Shown: positions 3,328-43,062 of the stretch, in pieces | Numbering within the stretch: position 1 is the first letter of the stretch | How the letters are laid out: each line of letters begins with the position of its first letter | From: a virus | Virus record (IMG/VR): IMGVR_UViG_3300037264_005855 | Coordinates: 1 to 45,636 of that record | Direction: 5' to 3' (one strand) | DNA length: 45,636 nucleotides | Program-made: the position numbers and the translations under genes | The notes under the pieces: model-generated | Databases searched by the model: none | What the model saw: the letters and a program-made list of their open reading frames with translations, nothing else | What the model was told of the DNA's origin: nothing

Positions 3328-3686
3328 GCGAATGGGCGGAGTACGACAAACTCGATCCACTTGGCGGTGGGAAATTTCTCGAGGACGCCCAGAATGCGCT
3401 CTTGTGCTCAATCATCGTGAATTCGATAGGTGGGCTAAAGGCATCGTTGCTAACGGCGATTACTCGGAAGCGACATCGGGCAAAGCGGATTGACGCGACT
3501 AGATTCTTGATGCTGAAGGGAGAAAAACGCAAGAAGACTGGAATGGAAATGCTTCATCTCGTCGAGGTGTTGAACGCAGCGCTCGGCGGAGACGATAAGA
3601 GGAAAAACGATGGGCGACATGAGCCTCGGAAAAATTCTAATCGAGTTCGGGGTGGAACTCGGCGACCTGCAACGCGGGCTCGCTGA
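2827..3686 (+). CDS. Tail assembly chaperone G-T fusion (programmed -1 frameshift)
   Basis: The -1 frame relative to G is open from about 3199 and runs to 3686. It has no good start codon of its own. Just after the G stop it reads L-S-S-S-E-L-S-E-W-A-E-Y-D-K-L-D-P-L-G-G, the signature of gpT-like extensions (S-E-x-x-E-W-x-x-Y-D-x-L-D-P-x-G), then a helical region (C-S-I-I-V-N-S). The product would be about 286 residues. G/GT frameshifting is conserved in siphophages (lambda, HK97). The T end overlaps the tape measure start by 77 bases. Confidence 0.72.
3219..3225 (+). promoter_or_regulatory. Candidate -1 frameshift slippery site
   Basis: GGGGGAA read as G-GGG-GAA in the G frame. The P-site Gly tRNA can re-pair perfectly with GGG after a -1 slip; the A-site change (GAA to GGA) is imperfect. 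It is the best homopolymeric run inside the window where both frames are open (about 3199-3327). The exact site is inferred. Confidence 0.45.
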
Positions 3687-5613
3687 AGTTAAGTCTAGCG
3701 TCGAATCGACTGGAAAAGAAACCGAAAAGCAAGGAACTGGTCTCGCGGATTACGCACAAAAGTGGTTTTTCGTGAAAGGCGCCGTGATGGACATGGCGAA
3801 TTTCATGAAAGGCATGGTCGCGGAATACGCGAATCAGGAACGCGCTATCAACTCGCTCAATCTCGCCCTCGGGAACCAAGGAAATCTTCTCCCCGGTGTG
3901 TCGCAAGCGTTACAGGAACAGGCGAGCGCGTTGCAGCGGACTACGACCTTTGCCGATGAAGCAATTACCAAGGGTCAGTCTTTTCTTGCGATGGCAGGAA
4001 TGACCGGTGATCAAATCAGAGCAGCGACGCCCGCGATCCTCGACTATGCCGCGGCAACGGGTATTGATGTTACGCAAGCATTTCAGAATGCGATGCGAGG
4101 CTCCGAAGGAATGGATCGAGCGTTTAAGATGTACGGAATTTCGGTCGACGATAATCTCCCGAAGAGTGAAAGGCTTGCGCAGTTAACGGATCAACTCTCT
4201 GGAAAATTCGGCGGGATGGCAGAGGTCATCGCAAGCGATGGAGTCGGCGCGATGGAGCGGATGACTAATGCCGTCGGAGAAGCAAAAGAAGGATTAGGAA
4301 AATTCTTCCAATTCGCGGTTGAATCAACAACCGGAGGAGGAGGAAGTGCGATGTTTGCTTTCTTTGAAGGCGTTGGGGCATTCTTTAGCCAAGATCTTGT
4401 AGTTGCGCTTGGAATTGCTCGACAAGGTTGGTCGTACTTAGTTGCTACGTGGCTCGAAGGTTTAGCAATGGTTGCTACACCACTTGCTGAATTCGGCAAT
4501 TTACTTGGCGTAACAACTGGAGTCGAGCAAGTTGCAAATCTTCAAGCATTAGCTGAAGGCTTCCGCGTGGGCGGGGACGCGCTTCGAGCTGAAGCGGAGG
4601 CCGCGGCAATCGCTGCGGCGGGAAATCAAGATCTCCAAGAAAAGATGGAAGGACTTGCTGGAACAATCGTGAAGACTGGTCTTAGCGCTTCCGAACTTGC
4701 TGATAAGTACTTAACCTCTTTTGCCAGAATGAGGGCGAGTTTTGTTGCTGAGGCAGCTGCGATGGTGTATGCAGATAGAGAAAAAGCGGCTGAACACGCG
4801 GAAATCGCAGCAATGATGACCGATGTTGATTTACGATATATCGACGGTTATCACATGGCGGGCGGTCTCAAGCAAGCGGAGGACGCTGCGATGGCCGCGA
4901 GTGCACGTGCGCTCGGAGTCACGATGAAGTCCGAGTCCGCGGCAACCCTTGCAAAACTCAGAGCGGATTTCGCGGCCTTAACCGCGGCAAACGTTTTAAG
5001 TACGGATCAACGCGCGGCCGCGGAAAAGAAACTTCTCGAACTCGAGAAACAACTTCAGAATGAGAAAAAGGCCTGGTATGAGTCTTCAAATTTATCGATC
5101 CTTCAGAATACGCTCGATGCGATGTCATCAATGGGAAAGGCAGGTAAGATCGCAGGCATCGCCTCAGCGACAATTAGCACCCTTGTAGGTATGGCGAAAG
5201 CCCTCGAAGTTCCTTGGCCCGCGAGCATCGTGGCTTTCGCGCAAGTTGCCGCGATGGGATGGGGAGTCGTTTCACGGATTAGAAGTTTCTCTGAAGGAAC
5301 GCCTGGTCTCGACTTCGCGAACTTCGGAAGCGAGTCTCCTGCGATGCTTCACGGAAGTGAGGCGGTTATCCCTCGAGGCGGCGGGCACGGGCTCGCGGAT
5401 GAAATCGCGGGTTCGCTCGCGAAGATGCCATCGGGCGATTCCGGGATGTCGGTTCTTTCAGGCGCGAGCAGCGGAGGCGGGCAAGAAGTTACCGTGCACA
5501 ATCAGATTCAAGCGCAACTCGTTATCGATGGTAAAGTGTTGGCCGAACAGATCGAGGAACTCACGAAGACGGGACGTGCGCGTGTTCACCCGACAGCGGT
5601 CAAGGAGTTCTAA
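3610..5613 (+). CDS. Tail length tape measure protein
   Basis: 667 residues, the longest tail gene before the tip, directly after the chaperones. It is helical and Ala-rich, with an N-terminal L-x-x-G-L-A-E-V-K-S-S-V coiled coil, a hydrophobic stretch near residues 240-300, a charged coiled coil near 440-490, and a C-terminal G-K-I-A-G-I-A-S-A-T-I-S-T helix pair like lambda gpH-type proteins. It then has F-S-E-G-T-P-G-L and H-G-S-E-A-V-I-P, the usual end of tape measures. At about 0.15 nm per residue the tail would be roughly 100 nm (inference). GAGG precedes the ATG. Confidence 0.9.
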   Translation: MGDMSLGKILIEFGVELGDLQRGLAEVKSSVESTGKETEKQGTGLADYAQKWFFVKGAVMDMANFMKGMVAEYANQERAINSLNLALGNQGNLLPGVSQALQEQASALQRTTTFADEAITKGQSFLAMAGMTGDQIRAATPAILDYAAATGIDVTQAFQNAMRGSEGMDRAFKMYGISVDDNLPKSERLAQLTDQLSGKFGGMAEVIASDGVGAMERMTNAVGEAKEGLGKFFQFAVESTTGGGGSAMFAFFEGVGAFFSQDLVVALGIARQGWSYLVATWLEGLAMVATPLAEFGNLLGVTTGVEQVANLQALAEGFRVGGDALRAEAEAAAIAAAGNQDLQEKMEGLAGTIVKTGLSASELADKYLTSFARMRASFVAEAAAMVYADREKAAEHAEIAAMMTDVDLRYIDGYHMAGGLKQAEDAAMAASARALGVTMKSESAATLAKLRADFAALTAANVLSTDQRAAAEKKLLELEKQLQNEKKAWYESSNLSILQNTLDAMSSMGKAGKIAGIASATISTLVGMAKALEVPWPASIVAFAQVAAMGWGVVSRIRSFSEGTPGLDFANFGSESPAMLHGSEAVIPRGGGHGLADEIAGSLAKMPSGDSGMSVLSGASSGGGQEVTVHNQIQAQLVIDGKVLAEQIEELTKTGRARVHPTAVKEF

Positions 5614-5614
5614 C

Positions 5615-6118
5615 TTGGGACATTTTATTCATCATATCAACGGACTGTTGAGCGCGGAAGAGGCGGAAACCTTCATCGTGTGGGCGGAATCGATTCCGCT
5701 TCAAGCCGAGAGTCCGTGTCCGATTATTCGAACGGTCGAAGGCGGACTCTGGCAATCGGTGGGTTCGATGAAGGTTTCGAACGTGCTCAAGAATTACGCG
5801 GGTGAGTTGAAGATCGATGTCTTCGACGGACCGGCGAAGTTGCAAGTTCTTCACTATCGAAGTGGAGATCGGGTTCCCTGGCATCCGGATTTTCGGCCTA
5901 ACGAGGTCAACTACAAAGTTTCGGCTTCGGTTTGCTTGCGTCCCGGTCATCATGTTTTCGAGTACATCGCTTCAAGCGGGATCGTGTCTTTCATCGGTCG
6001 ACCGGGCGATGCGATTCTTTTTCCTAGTTGGGTTGCGCACCGCGTGACTCCACTCGATAAGAGCACGGACGAGCGCTGGTCCCTCGCCGCGTGGTTGCGC
6101 GGGCCTGAATACAAGTAA
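5615..6118 (+). CDS. 2-oxoglutarate/Fe(II) oxygenase (prolyl-4-hydroxylase-like)
   Basis: 167 residues from TTG 5615, chosen because AAGGAG at 5602-5607 sits 7 bases upstream; the open frame extends further 5' but lies inside the tape measure gene. The catalytic set is clear: H90-x-D92 (in V-P-W-H-P-D-F), distal H142 (W-V-A-H-R-V) and R154 twelve residues later for 2-oxoglutarate. Between them are Y-K-V-S-A-S-V and G-R-P-G-D-A-I-L-F-P-S, as in P4H-type double-stranded beta helices. Such enzymes hydroxylate protein or nucleic acid substrates. Its location between tape measure and distal tail genes suggests late expression and possibly a virion protein as substrate (inference). Confidence 0.85.
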   Translation: MGHFIHHINGLLSAEEAETFIVWAESIPLQAESPCPIIRTVEGGLWQSVGSMKVSNVLKNYAGELKIDVFDGPAKLQVLHYRSGDRVPWHPDFRPNEVNYKVSASVCLRPGHHVFEYIASSGIVSFIGRPGDAILFPSWVAHRVTPLDKSTDERWSLAAWLRGPEYK

Positions 6119-6504: not shown

Positions 6505-7613
6505 TGGCAGCAAGAATCGCTTTCCAGCCTTTTATCGGATTGTCAGCGACGCTGACTTCCGTTTCATCGCAGGATCTCGTTTATCCGGCCCGCCGGCTTC
6601 GTGATCCTGCGCCCGGTGCAATTTGGCGCTCGAAGATCGGTTGGAACATTACGGATGCCTTCAATGACAAACTCGATTTCACAGAGGACGGGACCGCGCG
6701 CGTTGCTACGCTTACCCTCGCGCTGAACTACGCGACGGGCGCGCTATTGGCCACGCACGTCACCGCTCGGATGAATGCGGCGCCTGGCGCGGTCAATACG
6801 TACTTGGTAACTTATGACGGCGTGACAACAAAATTTACTATCGCGCGCGCGACGGGAACGGCGGCGCTTGTCCTCAAGTTTGGAGATGGGGCGAATCTTG
6901 TGCGGTCAGTTCACCTCGATCTCGGGTTCACCTCGACCAATAAGACGAGCGCAACTACGTATACCGCGGAAAACGTCGCTTTCAAAGGACGTGAATGGGT
7001 CAAGATTCAACTCGCGGCCGCCGCAAGCGGAAGTTTCGCGGCCGCGGTTAATCACAATATGTCGAGTGCGGGAACGGCAACGCTGCAAGGGAACGCGACG
7101 GATGCTTGGAGCGCGCCGACGTTGACTCAAGTGCTCTCAGACATCTCGACGGGCCCGCTTCCAATGCGCACGAAATTCTTTACGCCCGCGAGTTTCATTT
7201 GGTGGCGGTTAACCCTCACCGATGTTCAGAACAGCGCGGCCTTCACCGAACTCGGGATGTTTCACGTCTCGGGCTTTATCGAGCCGGCGCTTGATTTCAA
7301 AACGCCTTGGGCGGAGGAACGCGATGAACTTTCGGCCATTAGTTTTTCGGATCAAGGCGCGTCCTATGTCGATGAGAAACCGACGCGGACCGAATGGCCT
7401 TTGACGTGGCCCGCGCTTACGGCGGGTGAGAAGCAGAATTTCGACGGGTGGATTGACTTCGTGAGAAAAGGGAAATCGTTTTTCTTCGCGTTCGAACCCA
7501 CTGCGGATCCAACGTTTGTTCGCTACGTCATGCTCGCGGATGATGTCAAGTGGATAAAGGTTCCGCCGCTTCATTGGGCAGCGAGCGCTAAACTAAGGAC
7601 GATACTCGCATGA
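6504..7613 (+). CDS. Distal tail protein (Dit-position structural protein)
   Basis: 369 residues, starting inside the previous stop (TAATG). Residues about 60-170 form a beta domain (T-A-R-M-N-A-A-P-G, then V-T-Y-D-G-V-T-T-K-F-T-I-A) that recurs in the next, tail-tip protein. The C-terminal third has W-P-L-T-W-P-A-L-T-A-G-E, S-F-F-F-A-F-E-P-T and W-I-K-V-P-P-L-H-W, a pattern seen in siphophage tail proteins between tape measure and tip. It overlaps the tip gene by ATGA. Role as distal tail hub or adaptor is inferred from order. Confidence 0.6.
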   Translation: MAARIAFQPFIGLSATLTSVSSQDLVYPARRLRDPAPGAIWRSKIGWNITDAFNDKLDFTEDGTARVATLTLALNYATGALLATHVTARMNAAPGAVNTYLVTYDGVTTKFTIARATGTAALVLKFGDGANLVRSVHLDLGFTSTNKTSATTYTAENVAFKGREWVKIQLAAAASGSFAAAVNHNMSSAGTATLQGNATDAWSAPTLTQVLSDISTGPLPMRTKFFTPASFIWWRLTLTDVQNSAAFTELGMFHVSGFIEPALDFKTPWAEERDELSAISFSDQGASYVDEKPTRTEWPLTWPALTAGEKQNFDGWIDFVRKGKSFFFAFEPTADPTFVRYVMLADDVKWIKVPPLHWAASAKLRTILA

Positions 7614-10600
7614 CACTTGCTGGACACGGACAACCTGGTCTTCGCTCAGGCCTTCGTGCTTTTGACGAACTCACTGAGTGGACGCAATCGACTAAGGATG
7701 TCTTTGTTGAACTTCGTCCGATTCAGGAAATCAAACCTTCAACGTGGGCCGTCGACCAAGGCGGAACTTATGTCACGGCTTTTGATTTTATTTTCGACGG
7801 GATTCGACGCGATGTCGTTACGGTTCGTTCGCTTCTTGATACGGGTTTGGTCCGTGTTGAGACCTTAGCGGATTGCCGAAATATCGCAGGCACGTTTTTC
7901 TACGATGCGGATGAAGAATTCGCGCAGATTGCACTGAGTTGGGATGTAGTTGGGCAAACATGGGACGCGGCGCCGACAATGTTTTGGGATCAATTCCCAC
8001 GACTCTTTGTTCATCTTACCGACGGAAGTAATCCAGGTCTCTCAACTGTGGTCGCTGGAATCGGATTTTACTTTTCAAGCGCTGGCAAAACACGGCTTGA
8101 TGACGCGAACGTTCACCCCGCTTTGAGCCAAGATTTACTTTTACTCGGAGATCTCGAGACATGGGTTGACGGAGTCCCTCAAGGTTGGACGCTTTCCGGG
8201 ACTGGCGGTATTCCTATTTGGGATGATGCGGTAACAACTTGGGATCAAGCCGCAAAGTTTTGGGATCCGCTTACGATCAACATCATGAAGGATACTTCGA
8301 TTTTCAAGTCGGGTGGAGCAAGTATTAGGTTCGATATCACTGCGGACATCGCAGACCGAAGTATTTTCCGCACAATTCCTTCAACGCTTATCGTCGGAAA
8401 ATACTACCGATTGCATGGCTGGTATCGGTCAAGCGGCGCCGCCGTTCCAACTTTTGCTGTTCGGACCGTCGGTAGCGGCGCGACGATTTATCTTAACGGT
8501 AGGGACGCGAGCACAGCAGATGAAAACAGAAATCTCGATCCGACCGGAGAAGAATGGCGAAGATTTACTTTCGACTTCCGAGCGATTTCTTCGACAATGT
8601 TCGTCGTGTTACGCGGCGGATCAAACGTCGTAGGAAGTGTTTGGTTCGATAACATCAAGGTCTCGCGAGTCTGGCGCTACAACTGGTATGAGCCTCGTTT
8701 GATGACCTCTTCTTTGCCGTCGATTAACACAGGCTCGAACGACATTTTCTTCGGAGGAAAAACCATCGGAGTCGGAAGTATCACCTTCGTGAATCAAGAC
8801 GGAATGCTGGAACGTCTCGCGGCCGAAGTCGAATGGGCGAATCAAGCCGCCCTCGTTGATATCGGCGGACAGTTCAGCGACGATAAGCAAGAAGTTCTTG
8901 CTGACGATTGGTTCCGCGGATTCACCGGATTGATTCAATCAATCACTGCAACAGATCAAAACTTCAAAGTTGATCTGCAAGACCAACGCGTATTTTTTCA
9001 TATTAAACTTCCGCCGCGGTTGTATGACGACCAAGTCTTTACGTTGATGGACACGCGGAAGCAGGGTCAACCGCGTCCGATTTTCTTCGGCGCGAAGGAA
9101 AACATTTCTCCTGTTCGGATTTCGCGGAGTGCGTCGACCGGTTACGGGACCTATGAGATCTGCGATACTCTTGAGTCGCCGAACGGCATCAAAGCGGTTG
9201 ATATGGTTTACGCCTACATCAATCAAGCGGAAGCAGACCTCGAATCAACGACGGGCCGGCTTGAACTCGGAACTCCTACAGACTACACGAATGACTTCGC
9301 GGCCGGAACGTTTACAATCGTTCGTGATATTGGCCCCTATGTAATCGACGAGGGGAATCGTCGTCTCGATTTCAACATCGGGGGAAGCGAGTTCGTCGCG
9401 GTACTTTCCATCGGTTTGTTCACGGCAACAGCCCTTGCTTTAGAGGTTCAAACTCAAATGCGAGCGGCCGCGAGCGTCTCGACAATCGATGTCGCTTATT
9501 CGGATACAACGCACAAGTTCACTATCTCGAGGCCGTCGGGAACCTTAAACCTGAAAACGAATACGGGCGCGAATAAAGACAAGGCTCCCTACAAACTTCT
9601 CGGATATACACTCGGCGCAGACAAGACGGGTTCGCTTTCGTACACAGGCGAGAACGTGACGTTCACCAGCGCGGACAAGAACCATCTTGTTCGAGTCGAC
9701 GCGCAAGGCTTCAAGGATGACGCGCTCGGAACCTACACAGGCTCGCCTTTAAGCCTTATCGAAATTGGTGTGGATATTTGTCGCGTCATCCTTATCAAGT
9801 ACATGAAGAAATCACCCGCGATTGCCGACGAGACTTCGTTCTTGTTCGCGCGGCAGCGGGCCCCTGAGTCGCTTACGATGTTCTTGAATAAGACGGTTTC
9901 GACGAAGGATATCTTCGACCGTCTCGAGTTCTCGAATATCGCCAATATCGTCGTGAATGGTGAGGGGAAAGTCTTCTATAAGGTGTATGTCGGCGATATC
10001 CCCGCCAGGATCGCGGATCTCGATGATAGGCATTTCACCACGTTCACCTCGGGCCAATCGAATCGCGAAGTATTCACGACGATCCGAATCAAACACGATC
10101 AAGACCCAACGACGGGACTTTTCGACGCGCGCGAGGCGACGGACTCCTCGGTTATCGTTCGTCTCGGTCGGCCCGACATTCGAGAGTTCGAAACGTACAT
10201 CAAGAAAGGCGACAATGCGATCTCCGCGGCTAATCGCTTCCTCGAACTCTCGAGGACGGCAGCGCGCAAGATTTCGGGGATGACCCTCGGTTCTATCATG
10301 CTTCGTCTCGAGGTTGGCGACAAGTTCCGCTTGTCAAAGCGCCGAGCGATCTCGAAGGGCGGAATTATTACGTCCGAGATTTTCCGCGTCATCAGTTTGA
10401 ATAAGAATCCCCTCGCGGGCAAAGTGTCTTTTGAGGCAACGGATGACCGAGTGACGGTCGCTTCCGAGGCTTGTGTTTCAAATTGCCAACAGTTCTGTGA
10501 GTCGACTTGTCAAATCGGATGTCAACAGATTTGTCAAGGTACGTGCGAATCATCTTGCCAAGGTTCGTGTGAGGGAAGTTGTCAGGTATCGTGCGAAGCC

Positions 10601-10972
10601 TCTTGTCAATCGACGTGCGAGTTGGGTTGTCAGACGACGTGCCAGAAAGCGTGTCAAGACACTTGTCAGCAATCGTGTCAAGCGGCTTGTCAAGGGGCGG
10701 GGTGTCAAACGGTTTGTGAAAGTGCGTGCCAAACAACTTGCGAGACGACGTGTCAAACAGCTTGTCAAGCTTCGTGTCAAGGAAATTGTCAAGTGACGTG
10801 TCAGAGCGGTTGTCAAGTCACGTGTCAAACGGGATGTCAAGTAAGTTGTCAAACTGCTTGTCAAACCGGATGCCAAACAACGTGCGAGTTGAACTGTCAG
10901 GACGCGTGTCAAACGGGCTGTCAAAGTTCATGTCAACAGAATTGTCAGACAGTTAAGGAAGGATTCATCTAA
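7610..10972 (+). CDS. Tail-tip / host-specificity protein with a C-terminal Cys-x3 repeat domain
   Basis: 1120 residues. After an N-terminal tail domain (about 1-160), residues 165-355 look like a carbohydrate-binding-type jelly roll (L-G-D-L-E-T-W-V-D-G-V-P-Q-G-W, S-I-R-F-D-I, W-R-R-F-T-F-D-F, S-V-W-F-D-N-I-K-V). Residues about 588-690 repeat the beta domain of the preceding protein. From C955 to the end, 40 cysteines occur in near-unbroken Cys-[Gln/Glu]-x-x tetrads, interrupted once by a five-residue unit. The rest has few Cys. Its TAA overlaps the ATG of a radical SAM gene, so that domain is a likely substrate. It could otherwise be a disulfide- or metal-stabilised fibre. Confidence 0.8.
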   Translation: MTLAGHGQPGLRSGLRAFDELTEWTQSTKDVFVELRPIQEIKPSTWAVDQGGTYVTAFDFIFDGIRRDVVTVRSLLDTGLVRVETLADCRNIAGTFFYDADEEFAQIALSWDVVGQTWDAAPTMFWDQFPRLFVHLTDGSNPGLSTVVAGIGFYFSSAGKTRLDDANVHPALSQDLLLLGDLETWVDGVPQGWTLSGTGGIPIWDDAVTTWDQAAKFWDPLTINIMKDTSIFKSGGASIRFDITADIADRSIFRTIPSTLIVGKYYRLHGWYRSSGAAVPTFAVRTVGSGATIYLNGRDASTADENRNLDPTGEEWRRFTFDFRAISSTMFVVLRGGSNVVGSVWFDNIKVSRVWRYNWYEPRLMTSSLPSINTGSNDIFFGGKTIGVGSITFVNQDGMLERLAAEVEWANQAALVDIGGQFSDDKQEVLADDWFRGFTGLIQSITATDQNFKVDLQDQRVFFHIKLPPRLYDDQVFTLMDTRKQGQPRPIFFGAKENISPVRISRSASTGYGTYEICDTLESPNGIKAVDMVYAYINQAEADLESTTGRLELGTPTDYTNDFAAGTFTIVRDIGPYVIDEGNRRLDFNIGGSEFVAVLSIGLFTATALALEVQTQMRAAASVSTIDVAYSDTTHKFTISRPSGTLNLKTNTGANKDKAPYKLLGYTLGADKTGSLSYTGENVTFTSADKNHLVRVDAQGFKDDALGTYTGSPLSLIEIGVDICRVILIKYMKKSPAIADETSFLFARQRAPESLTMFLNKTVSTKDIFDRLEFSNIANIVVNGEGKVFYKVYVGDIPARIADLDDRHFTTFTSGQSNREVFTTIRIKHDQDPTTGLFDAREATDSSVIVRLGRPDIREFETYIKKGDNAISAANRFLELSRTAARKISGMTLGSIMLRLEVGDKFRLSKRRAISKGGIITSEIFRVISLNKNPLAGKVSFEATDDRVTVASEACVSNCQQFCESTCQIGCQQICQGTCESSCQGSCEGSCQVSCEASCQSTCELGCQTTCQKACQDTCQQSCQAACQGAGCQTVCESACQTTCETTCQTACQASCQGNCQVTCQSGCQVTCQTGCQVSCQTACQTGCQTTCELNCQDACQTGCQSSCQQNCQTVKEGFI
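10472..10942 (+). repeat. 12 bp-period coding repeat (Cys-x3 tetrads)
   Basis: About 40 degenerate 12-base units, each starting TGT or TGC and usually followed by CAA or CAG (sometimes GAA/GAG), give Cys-Gln-x-x. One unit near 10690-10705 is 15 bases. Third bases and the x-x codons vary while Cys stays fixed, which argues for protein-level selection and not for fresh slippage. Confidence 0.9.
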
Positions 10973-12240
10973 TGAGAACGGAAACGCTTTGGATCGTGAA
11001 CACGAGAACGTGCAATCTTGATTGCGCCTATTGCTACCAGGGGAGTCATAAGTGGACGTGGCAAGTGCAACGCGGACTCCTCAAGATGATGACGGAGGAA
11101 ACACTTCGCGCGGCACTTCCGTGGGCGGTCGAATGGCCTTCGCGCGGGTTAACCTGCACGTGGTACGGTGGGGAACCGCTCCTCAACCTTGCACTCATGA
11201 AAAGCGCGATGCCCGAATGGGAAGCGGCGTTTTTCCGCGCCGACAAGGAGCTCGGATGGAGCGTGACGACAAACGGAACGCTTCTCAACAGCGACGCGCG
11301 CGAAGTCCTCGACCGACACAAAGTCTCGATTCTGCTTTCCCTCGATGGTCCGCCCGAATTGCATAACCAGAGTCGCGTTTATTACGGTGGAAAAAAGCCC
11401 TCCTTCGAGGACATCCCGACGGCGGATATCATCGCGTGGCGTCCGAAGATCGAGATCGCCTGGCAATTGGATCCGAAATACGACTTTCAACCGCGGCATG
11501 TCGAAGAAATGATCGACCGCGGGTTTCACCACATCAACTTCAACTTGAACTGGTTAGCGGAATGGCCCGCGGAGCGACGAATCGCCCTCGAGGAATTCAT
11601 GCGCTACATCATGCGCACAGCTCTTCAGACGAGGCGCGGAGAACGAAAGGGACGCGAACTATTCAGCAATTGGCCAGGTAAGTTCGACGAAGCGCTTATC
11701 AAACTCGCGAAGCCCGCGCAGCCTTGCGGGACGGGGCTTCACATGCTCGCGCTTACTCCCGAGGGGTGGTTGTATCCCTCGCAAGAGATGGCGTTCACTT
11801 CTCTCGAGCCGAATCGCGCTCCAGGTACAGCGGAATACTATCGCGTCGGGGACATTCGACAGGTTCCCGTTATCGATCAAGAAAAACTCCGCGTGGTTTC
11901 GGGAATCAAAAACGAGCAGATGGTAACTCCTCCGGGATTTTCTTGCTCGAACTGCATCGCGAATCCGATTTCATTCGGCGGTTGTCATTGTCGTTACATC
12001 GGGCAGGACGGCGCGGATCCCGCGAATCGTTTCAATATCATGCCTGGTTGGTGTCAGTCGATGCAATCGGCGATGACCGGGCTCGCGCAAGGTGCGCTTA
12101 TCGAGAAGTATGTCGGGATTAAGTTGAAACCGGTGACGGAACCGGCGCCGCTGAAGTTTGTCCCTCGGAAGTTCGAAGAGCCCGCGTTCGAAGAGCTCAA
12201 ATTCGATACGGGCAGACAAGAGTTCGTCGCGAAAACGTAA
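10972..12240 (+). CDS. Radical SAM enzyme with SPASM-like C-terminus (putative tail-tip maturase)
   Basis: 422 residues. C14-x3-C18-x2-C21 (T-C-N-L-D-C-A-Y-C-Y) binds the SAM [4Fe-4S] cluster. W-Y-G-G-E-P-L-L is the GGEP motif, and T-T-N-G-T-L and L-S-L-D-G-P follow as in anSME/RiPP maturases. The C-terminal part has a first SPASM-like element (P-C-G-T-G...P-E-G-W-L-Y-P-S-Q-E) with Ser at the usual second Cys, then C-S-N-C, C-H-C and W-C-Q-S, consistent with auxiliary clusters. The ATG overlaps the tip-gene stop by one base (AAGGAAGG upstream), so synthesis is coupled. Thioether formation on the Cys repeat is inferred; epimerisation or other chemistry is possible. Confidence 0.88.
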   Translation: MRTETLWIVNTRTCNLDCAYCYQGSHKWTWQVQRGLLKMMTEETLRAALPWAVEWPSRGLTCTWYGGEPLLNLALMKSAMPEWEAAFFRADKELGWSVTTNGTLLNSDAREVLDRHKVSILLSLDGPPELHNQSRVYYGGKKPSFEDIPTADIIAWRPKIEIAWQLDPKYDFQPRHVEEMIDRGFHHINFNLNWLAEWPAERRIALEEFMRYIMRTALQTRRGERKGRELFSNWPGKFDEALIKLAKPAQPCGTGLHMLALTPEGWLYPSQEMAFTSLEPNRAPGTAEYYRVGDIRQVPVIDQEKLRVVSGIKNEQMVTPPGFSCSNCIANPISFGGCHCRYIGQDGADPANRFNIMPGWCQSMQSAMTGLAQGALIEKYVGIKLKPVTEPAPLKFVPRKFEEPAFEELKFDTGRQEFVAKT

Positions 12241-12265: not shown

Positions 12266-13279
12266 ATGGCTTGGGATAGGACACAACCGGTAACGTCGGC
12301 CGCGCTGGCATCGGCGCCTGTGCGAACCAACTTTCAGGAAATCGATCAGTCGCTCATGGGGCAGAACTTCGTGCGCGATCCTTACTTCATCATTTGGCCA
12401 GCGGGTGATGCGGCCGCGCCGGCGCATTACAAGATCACGGGCACGCCAACGATTTCGCGTGATACGACGAATTTCAAGACCCACGGAATGAGCGCGAAAA
12501 TCACGGGCTCCGCGACGGGTCGCATCGTTACGACGGTTCTCAACTCAACCGACTTCCCGACAGGTCTATTTCGGGGCGTTCCGTTTTCGTTCGGATGCTG
12601 GATTCGAACGGATACGGCGAGCATTGCACGACTTGTTCTCGACGATGGCGTTGGGCAAGGCGTATCCGGTTATGCACCGGGAACCTCGACTTGGACTTGG
12701 GTGACGGGAACTCGCCTTCTCGATCCGAGCGCGACGAAGATCGAATTGCTTTTCGAGTCGCTTTCCGCTACAGCCAACACAAGTTTCCAACTCGGAACGC
12801 TTATCCTCGGCTCAATCGCGCCGCAATACTTCATTCCTACGCAGGTCTCACGGGGTACGCTACACTTTCCGTTTGTAGGTGTGCAAGCGACTGGAACGCG
12901 ATTGGCCGAAGCGATTCTTACACGGCCTTTCCGTGTCGAGCATACTCAGCTTCGCGTCTCGGTCGCGCCCGTAACGACCGCACTTATCGTCGATGTTAAT
13001 CACTACGATGGTTCGGCCTATACAACGATGTATTCGACACGTCCTCAAATCGCGGCAGCGGCGCTTACCGGTGGTGCGGTTCCTGATGGAACATATCGCT
13101 ATCGTTGTTTCCAAGGTTCGAACAACGCGGATGGTTATACGGACCGTTTGCTTTCGTGTGATGTTGATCAAATCGGTTCGGGAGGTGCGGGCTCGGACTT
13201 GCATATCGACGTGCGTTGTCTTCAATTCAATGATCCGCTTGAAGCCTTTCGTAGCTCGACTGCGATTGGAAACGAGTAA
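12266..13279 (+). CDS. Tail fibre-like / receptor-binding candidate
   Basis: 337 residues; ATG 12266 chosen for TAGGAGA upstream, though the frame is open earlier. The start (M-A-W-D-R-T-Q-P-V...P-V-R-T-N-F-Q-E-I-D) is typical of phage fibre or appendage N-termini that attach to the tail. A jelly-roll-like module follows (H-Y-K-I-T-G-T-P, G-V-P-F-S-F-G-C-W-I-R-T, F-Q-L-G-T-L-I-L-G), then a beta-rich C-terminal region ending in a variable R-C-L-Q-F-N segment. Likely a carbohydrate- or receptor-binding appendage. Confidence 0.6.
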   Translation: MAWDRTQPVTSAALASAPVRTNFQEIDQSLMGQNFVRDPYFIIWPAGDAAAPAHYKITGTPTISRDTTNFKTHGMSAKITGSATGRIVTTVLNSTDFPTGLFRGVPFSFGCWIRTDTASIARLVLDDGVGQGVSGYAPGTSTWTWVTGTRLLDPSATKIELLFESLSATANTSFQLGTLILGSIAPQYFIPTQVSRGTLHFPFVGVQATGTRLAEAILTRPFRVEHTQLRVSVAPVTTALIVDVNHYDGSAYTTMYSTRPQIAAAALTGGAVPDGTYRYRCFQGSNNADGYTDRLLSCDVDQIGSGGAGSDLHIDVRCLQFNDPLEAFRSSTAIGNE

Positions 13280-42430: not shown

Positions 42431-43062
42431 ACACCGAAGTTATCGGACAAGACGTTCACGCGATGGTGGACCTCGACGGACAAGACGTTCACGCGATGGT
42501 GGACCTCGACGGACAAGACGTTCACGCGATGGTGGACCTCGAGACACTCGCTACCTCTATTGACGCGAGCATCGCATCACTCGGCGCGACGGCGTGGCAA
42601 CGTCGGCCTTATCCGTGTATTGATCTATTCCTTCGGCCCGAACTGAAGTTGTTGATCAACATCGCGAATCAACCGACGCGTCGCTTCGACGGTGCGACAA
42701 TCCTTTGGTGGTTGCGACAGTCGAAGGAGGCGCAAGAGGCGACGTTCGGGAAGGGAGCAGAACGTCTCGGGCTTCGGCCTGCGCTAACCGAGCTCTACAA
42801 CTGGGCGGTAAAACTCAAGGTTACGCATTGGTGGAGTTGGCCCGCGCAATACGACCTCGCCCTCCTCGACCACGCCTATGCGCAATTCGAAATGCAGGCG
42901 CCGTGGAAACGAAAGAATCTCAATTGCGCAAGAACAATTTGCAGTTTCCTCAAGGTTCAACGAAACCCGAACCCACTCAAACACGATCCACTCGAAGACG
43001 CGCGAGTGCAAGCCGATGCGGTGCGGCGCGCGTTCGCCCTCGTCGACAAAGGAAAAAAATAA
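42427..43062 (+). CDS. DEDD-type 3'-5' exonuclease with a triplicated N-terminus
   Basis: 211 residues. The first 38 residues hold three copies of G-Q-D-V-H-A-M-V-D-L; only the last continues as D-L-E-T-L-A-T (motif I, D-x-E) then A-S-I-A-S-L-G-A. Later Y-D-L-A-L-L-D-H-A-Y and H-D-P-L-E-D-A-R-V-Q-A fit motifs II and III. Related phage and RNase T-like exonucleases trim DNA or RNA 3' ends. Each repeat contains an in-frame ATG, so shorter forms may be made. Confidence 0.72.
   Translation: MNTEVIGQDVHAMVDLDGQDVHAMVDLDGQDVHAMVDLETLATSIDASIASLGATAWQRRPYPCIDLFLRPELKLLINIANQPTRRFDGATILWWLRQSKEAQEATFGKGAERLGLRPALTELYNWAVKLKVTHWWSWPAQYDLALLDHAYAQFEMQAPWKRKNLNCARTICSFLKVQRNPNPLKHDPLEDARVQADAVRRAFALVDKGKK
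42445..42540 (+). repeat. 33 bp tandem repeat at the exonuclease start
   Basis: Two exact 33-base units (42445-42477, 42478-42510) and a third identical over 30 bases (42511-42540). Each has an in-frame ATG (GCGATGGTGGACCTC). Confidence 0.97.

Follow-up and report, generated by a model that had tools for sequence, protein, structure and literature searches.

A radical SAM enzyme of the PapB/QhpD/CteB type, encoded by a phage, is likely to modify the cysteine array at the C-terminus of a tail-tip protein from the same phage; biochemical or virion data are not available. The pair is found in the record of an uncultivated virus, 45,636 bases long (IMG/VR record IMGVR_UViG_3300037264_005855), and the whole of this stretch of DNA is referred to as the window. 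The features discussed are collected in Table 1.

Table 1. Coordinates of the tail-module features in the window.
Feature	Position	Strand	Remarks
Tape measure protein	3610..5613	+	TIGR01760 1e-5; the L267 homolog matches phrog_9483 (2.7e-15)
Tail-module gene (ORF)	7610..10972	+	1120 aa
Tail protein body, residues 1-954	7610..10471	+	Putative tail-tip/hub or fibre protein
Array of 40 Cys, residues 955-1112	10472..10945	+	C-[Q/E]-x-x tetrads; predicted substrate
Codon of Glu1117	10958..10960	+	Predicted acceptor of the last Cys (1112, i+5), outside the tetrad array
Stop/start overlap TAATG	10970..10974	+	Tail gene/enzyme gene; TAA and ATG share one base
Radical SAM/SPASM-like maturase (predicted)	10972..12240	+	422 aa; matches to PF04055 and PapB; CteB-like predicted fold
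C-x3-C-x2-C motif (C14, C18, C21)	11011..11034	+	SAM-binding iron-sulfur cluster
SPASM-like auxiliary-cluster region, C252 to C361	11725..12054	+	Two usual Cys missing
Next tail gene (MAWD...)	12266..13279	+	Homolog directly after the array-less tail protein in L395

An earlier reading of the sequence alone had described the terminal 166 residues of the tail protein as Cys-[Gln/Glu]-x-x repeats in an otherwise Cys-poor protein, with the stop of its gene overlapping the ATG of the enzyme gene. Both claims held: the ORF and the Cys counts place all 40 array Cys within the last 166 residues and only three in the first 953, and the overlap reads TAATG. The 39 spacings between successive array Cys comprise 38 of four residues and one of five (CQGAGC), and the residue that follows is Gln in 31 cases, Glu in eight and Val once, after the first Cys. 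Because the tandem-repeat units of the array DNA are just 66-81% alike, the array is more than a simple repeat at the DNA level. In a comparison with the closest ortholog (L393, tail body 69% identical), 34 of 34 comparable Cys proved to be conserved although the codons of 17 differ synonymously, which demonstrates selection on each array Cys. The TIGR04117 model (CXXX radical SAM target) matched the array with 4.3e-7 and 30 bits, which is below its cut-off of 50.

The adjoining enzyme meets the criteria of the radical SAM superfamily by motif and by profile, as it carries the C-x3-C-x2-C motif and matches Pfam Radical_SAM PF04055 (1.7e-12, 48.3 bits, cut-off 29.5). A GGEP motif is located at residues 66-69, and the Cys kept in the SPASM-like region are 252, 325, 328, 338, 340 and 361. 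The Y-x-C Cys (the sequence reads YPSQEM) and one Cys of C-x2-C-x5-C are missing, whereas other array-linked enzymes have both. Hence, the C-x3-C-x2-C motif, the GGEP motif and the SPASM-like Cys that the sequence-only reading had pointed out were all confirmed, but the full SPASM criterion is not met. The best curated family was NCBIfam PapB (NF047865; 6.5e-35, 120.9 bits, cut-off 340), and the QhpD family (TIGR03906) scored 91.3 bits (cut-off 453), the TIGR04115 CXXX-repeat maturase 63.8 bits (cut-off 350). The nif11-like and SCIFF maturases, also among the top curated families, remained below cut-off as well, which leaves the enzyme outside every curated family. The nearest solved structure is CteB, both by sequence and by predicted fold (5wgg, E 3e-18); in the structure model the core is good and the SPASM part poor. 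That maturases of known thioether type are related to the enzyme, as had been proposed, is supported by these results, with the PapB, QhpD and CteB families as the nearest relatives. From sequence and predicted fold we infer that it works like a ranthipeptide maturase. Its radical SAM core begins at the N-terminus, so that there is no room for an N-terminal RRE. A leader peptide was not seen for the tail protein.

To follow the array and the enzyme through related phages, we compared homologs of the tail body, which were found in L267, L268, L269, L393, L395 and L397. Tail body, array and adjacent enzyme are all kept in L267, L268 (also L193) and L269 (also L198), and L393 keeps the array, its contig being cut off inside it. 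The tail homologs of L395 (39% identical) and L397 (28%) carry no terminal array and have no adjoining radical SAM gene. In L395, a homolog of the next tail gene of the window follows 34 bases after the tail stop with no enzyme gene in between, and in L397 no radical SAM gene is present in the approximately 2 kb available downstream of the tail protein. The L397 record does have a radical SAM gene at a distance of about 20 kb; it was considered as a partner and rejected, given its sugar-transfer-like neighbours and an E-value of 0.004 with the array-linked model. A search of viral contigs with the window enzyme alone returned no relatives; a two-sequence alignment search used in its place yielded three loci.

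The coupling was also surveyed from both sides. For the array-first survey, viral contigs were scanned with the pattern (C-[Q/E]-x-x)6-C without considering enzymes; the records obtained are a sample and no count of the whole of IMG/VR, and genuine arrays among the matches were judged by eye and by repeat diversity. Many plain Cys-x3 matches proved to be low-complexity DNA in other frames, and these were dropped as arrays and served as controls. A PF04055 match was present in 28 of the 33 viral records with a genuine array versus 0 of 46 control records, in which the plain Cys pattern arises through low-complexity DNA. Four of the 33 have an array that is cut by, or lies near, the contig end. 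Another member of this set, G019, was considered as an array without an enzyme; this was rejected upon finding a divergent radical SAM ORF with C-x3-C-x2-C and QhpD similarity 0.9 kb upstream of the array. The array and the radical SAM gene were within about 3.5 kb of each other wherever both were located. The wider total is 36 of 41, but seven of those 41 records had been selected in part following a search for radical SAM genes, and for this reason the 33-record subset is the fair sample. On bacterial genome contigs, from Clostridia-type genomes, the enzyme was found within the fetched 8 kb of six out of seven genuine arrays.

The enzyme-first sample consisted of relatives of another array-linked enzyme clade, fetched without a Cys criterion. 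Here, an array was located within 5 kb in 17 of 18 close relatives, and the remaining one lies on a contig that stops right behind the enzyme gene. No arrays were present in human-gut phage records that matched the enzyme weakly; one record among them, L275, carries a gene for a SCIFF peptide and resembles bacterial DNA. Frequent arrays without an enzyme had been named beforehand as the observation that would refute the coupling. This check did not refute it: nearly all intact arrays have an enzyme nearby, and the coupling of array and enzyme is real.

Since a period of four hides the pairing register inside the arrays, we sought it at their edges. At array starts, where no Cys lies upstream, the residue after the first Cys is Gln or Glu in 4 of 24 cases (17%), compared with 92% inside. 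At array ends, where no Cys lies downstream, the position five residues after the last Cys is occupied by Gln or Glu in 22 of 23 cases and by Asp in the other, with Gln or Glu at +4 and at +6 in 1 of 23 each. The scan pattern cannot produce the result at the edges and, if anything, opposes the one at the starts. The number of independent array ends is smaller than 23, as some come from related loci, with five close homologs. A smaller replicate set, which was found via the enzyme or the tail body and not picked by the Cys pattern, gave 1/6 at the starts and 5/8 plus one Asp at the ends.

Irregular spacings within the arrays follow the same rule. If the next Cys lies at +7, +8, +9 or further, Gln or Glu is found at +5 with frequencies of 0.89, 0.91, 0.69 and 0.76, respectively; if it lies at +3, +5 or +6, Gln or Glu follows that Cys instead (0.79, 0.93, 0.64). 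Part of the array of G019 is an 8-residue repeat, C-x3-G-E-x2-C, with Glu again at +5. In the window, the 40 Cys match 40 acceptors one-to-one, of which 39 lie at i+5 and a single one at i+6. The final acceptor, Glu1117, is located beyond the tetrads, and Gln or Glu is also present at the equivalent place in L267, L268/L193 and L269/L198. The registers i+1 and i-3 were rejected by the edge analysis. The motif is Cys-x4-[Gln/Glu], interlaced at period 4, in which the register is established and a bond between the two residues is inferred. A side-chain register of i+5 favours side-chain links of the ranthipeptide or QhpD type over the alpha-carbon links of sactipeptides.

The proposed reaction is inferred and would begin with the cleavage of SAM to a 5'-deoxyadenosyl radical, which would abstract a hydrogen atom from the Gln or Glu side chain located five residues past each Cys. 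The predicted site of abstraction, and with it the bonded atom, is probably C-gamma beside the side-chain carbonyl, where the Cys sulfur would bond. This would yield a ladder in which as many as 40 thioether rings overlap, with about 2 Da lost per ring. We infer that this ladder forms part of the virion, where its likely purpose is a rigid tail-tip appendage resistant to proteases and reduction.

Several characterised enzymes provide precedents. PapB links Cys to Asp or Glu and tolerates Cys-Xn-Asp with n from 0 to 6 (PMC9413430). QhpD acts on a protein subunit, in which it joins Cys to Asp by S-Cbeta bonds and Cys to Glu by S-Cgamma bonds, and is the precedent for modifying a protein that remains part of its complex (PMC8172795, PMC8326336). 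In both systems the sulfur bonds to the carbon next to the side-chain carbonyl, which is C-beta of Asp or C-gamma of Glu (PMC9413430, PMC8326336). The acceptor set found here appears to fit this chemistry, because Gln and Glu share C-gamma and Asp has the equivalent C-beta. A link reported in SCIFF, Cys32-Thr37, spans five residues (PMC8172795, PMC8326336) but is contested, as in vivo work gives Cys32-Thr34 (PMC8326336).

Some points speak against the crosslinking proposal. The acceptors in the window are mostly Gln, and to our knowledge no ranthipeptide bond to Gln has been demonstrated. Unlike CteB, the enzyme has no N-terminal RRE-like region, which leaves its substrate recognition unexplained, and two usual SPASM Cys are absent. 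Radical SAM enzymes are sensitive to oxygen, and the host of the window virus is unknown. The RiPP-like, crosslinked tail fibre or spike that the sequence-only reading had inferred is supported comparatively, but neither the crosslinks nor the presence of the protein in virions has been shown.

The tail-protein gene comes after the tape measure gene and a gene for a 369-residue protein, and a position behind the tape measure gene is usual for tail-tip proteins. Profile searches of the tail body matched only phrog_8917 (unknown function) and no informative family. A search for tail homologs among annotated phages gave no match, and a profile search of the tail body against solved structures gave chance matches only. 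The predicted structure of the tail protein (pLDDT 37) was too low in confidence to be used. The label 'tail-tip' is thus an inference that rests on gene order and on the tail families of other array proteins, as the window protein itself lacks an informative match. The tail module of the window also contains a 2OG-Fe(II) oxygenase-like gene at 5615-6118 (PF13640 2e-6; phrog_81, phrog_61), which is present in the ortholog L393 (338-853) and has no match in L267; it is possible that it encodes a second tail-modifying enzyme. A 33-base tandem repeat with three perfect copies occurs at 42444-42542 of the window.

Of the alternatives, the first supposes that the enzyme modifies the array by another bond, such as a sactipeptide alpha-carbon thioether, an adjacent or upstream link, or a change without crosslinking. 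In its favour, the bonds made by related radical SAM/SPASM families are of many types, and phage arrays of the TIGR04115 type have Ser, Thr or Gly after Cys, so that the chemistry may differ between clades. However, the i+5 side chain is constrained at array ends without a nearby Cys, i+1 is free at the starts, and alpha-carbon links would need neither Gln nor Glu; we consider this explanation unlikely. Also unlikely is that the modified protein is a released RiPP-like product or effector, encoded in the tail gene module but no part of the virion. Some array proteins are indeed small (L101, CR5, phiEaH2) and some carry amidase-like stretches (phrog_5107), but the window array is joined to a tail-module protein of 954 residues, tail-fibre J-like or tail-tip proteins carry other arrays, and neither a protease gene nor an export gene was recognised next to the window array.

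A third possibility, that the array binds metal or iron-sulfur clusters or makes disulfides and that the radical SAM gene is an accessory for metal loading or redox, is very unlikely. The Cys are densely packed, and phage spikes can bind iron, but this explanation predicts neither Gln or Glu exactly five residues after each Cys nor the joint gain and loss with a peptide-modifying enzyme. Finally, a chance or low-complexity repeat beside an unrelated enzyme, suggested by the many low-complexity Cys repeats in the first pattern scan, can be practically ruled out by the selection on Cys, the co-occurrence in comparison with the controls and the joint absence of array and enzyme.

Thus, modification of the tail-tip array by the adjoining enzyme remains the preferred reading, and similar arrays are found in other phages on tail families that clearly differ: a fibre J-like protein in L191 (phrog_31), a tail-tip protein in L332 (PF09327) and other tail proteins in L151, L055 and L182. 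In both of the cultured phages Cronobacter phage CR5 (L270 6133-6944) and Erwinia phage phiEaH2 (L271 6096-6895), two small Cys-array ORFs precede a pair of radical SAM genes and lie near a virion structural gene. Their array Cys are followed by Ser, Thr or Gly, and the ORFs of CR5 coincide with no annotated gene. There appear to be at least two types of array, one with Gln/Glu and PapB/QhpD-like enzymes, to which the window belongs, and one with Ser/Thr/Gly and mostly TIGR04115 enzymes. Proteins with C-x-C-x repeats (CNCECTCTCTCTGTC...) are encoded in L426 (2832-3461) and L425 (8786-9346), no more than 5 kb from a PapB-like radical SAM gene, and possibly represent a further type. L399 (13216-17946) contains a divergent radical SAM ORF missed by PF04055 beside an array that shifts to the 8-residue repeat C-x3-G-E-x2-C. 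Arrays with adjacent radical SAM genes were also observed on Clostridia-type contigs (L281, L288, L331, L332, L336, L356), which are likely prophages; some of their proteins have amidase-like stretches.

A bolder reading, which we favour by a narrow margin, is that many unrelated tailed phages have recruited their own radical SAM enzymes, on more than one occasion, to convert Cys-x4-[Gln/Glu] arrays on tail proteins into thioether ladders, which would be a widespread form of virion chemistry not recognised so far. The predicted number of such crosslinks per protein would be the largest known to us. If true, radical SAM thioether chemistry would extend from small peptides and one dehydrogenase subunit to viral structural proteins, and phages would gain a covalent means of hardening tail parts. 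The pairing rule predicts a partner for each Cys, five residues on, or six at the single wider gap, with 2 Da lost, and arrays with such a built-in rule could serve as genetically encoded stapled rods. A crosslinked array would tend to escape standard virion proteomics, which may explain why literature searches turned up no paper describing such a modification in phage structural proteins.

Among known systems, PapB/freyrasin belongs to the best-scoring family and resembles the window in linking Cys to an acidic residue a few positions downstream, in repeated motifs of one substrate. It differs in having six Cys-x3-Asp motifs in a small peptide, compared with 40 interlaced Cys-x4-[Gln/Glu] motifs in a protein of 1120 residues. 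QhpD likewise forms radical SAM thioethers to Asp and Glu within a protein that remains part of its complex (PMC8172795, PMC8326336), but with three links of irregular spacing, without an array and not in a virus. CteB/SCIFF (thermocellin) offers the nearest solved structure and, with the reported Cys32-Thr37 link, a connection from i to i+5; moreover, the SCIFF peptide encountered in our survey has CQTSCQSACKTSC tetrads. In contrast to the window, this system uses a Thr acceptor with one bond shown, has an N-terminal RRE and is cellular. Closest in concept are TIGR04114, TIGR04115 and TIGR04117, NCBIfam families curated in silico that pair Cys-x3 repeats with radical SAM enzymes. Arrays beside full TIGR04115 members, which we found in the phage loci L107, L117, L156 and L046, mostly have Ser, Thr or Gly after Cys, and the Gln/Glu register was not found in them. 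Radical SAM targets with CXXX repeats are therefore already known as an idea in NCBIfam; what stands out here is their place on phage tails, their spread, and the number and regularity of the predicted links.
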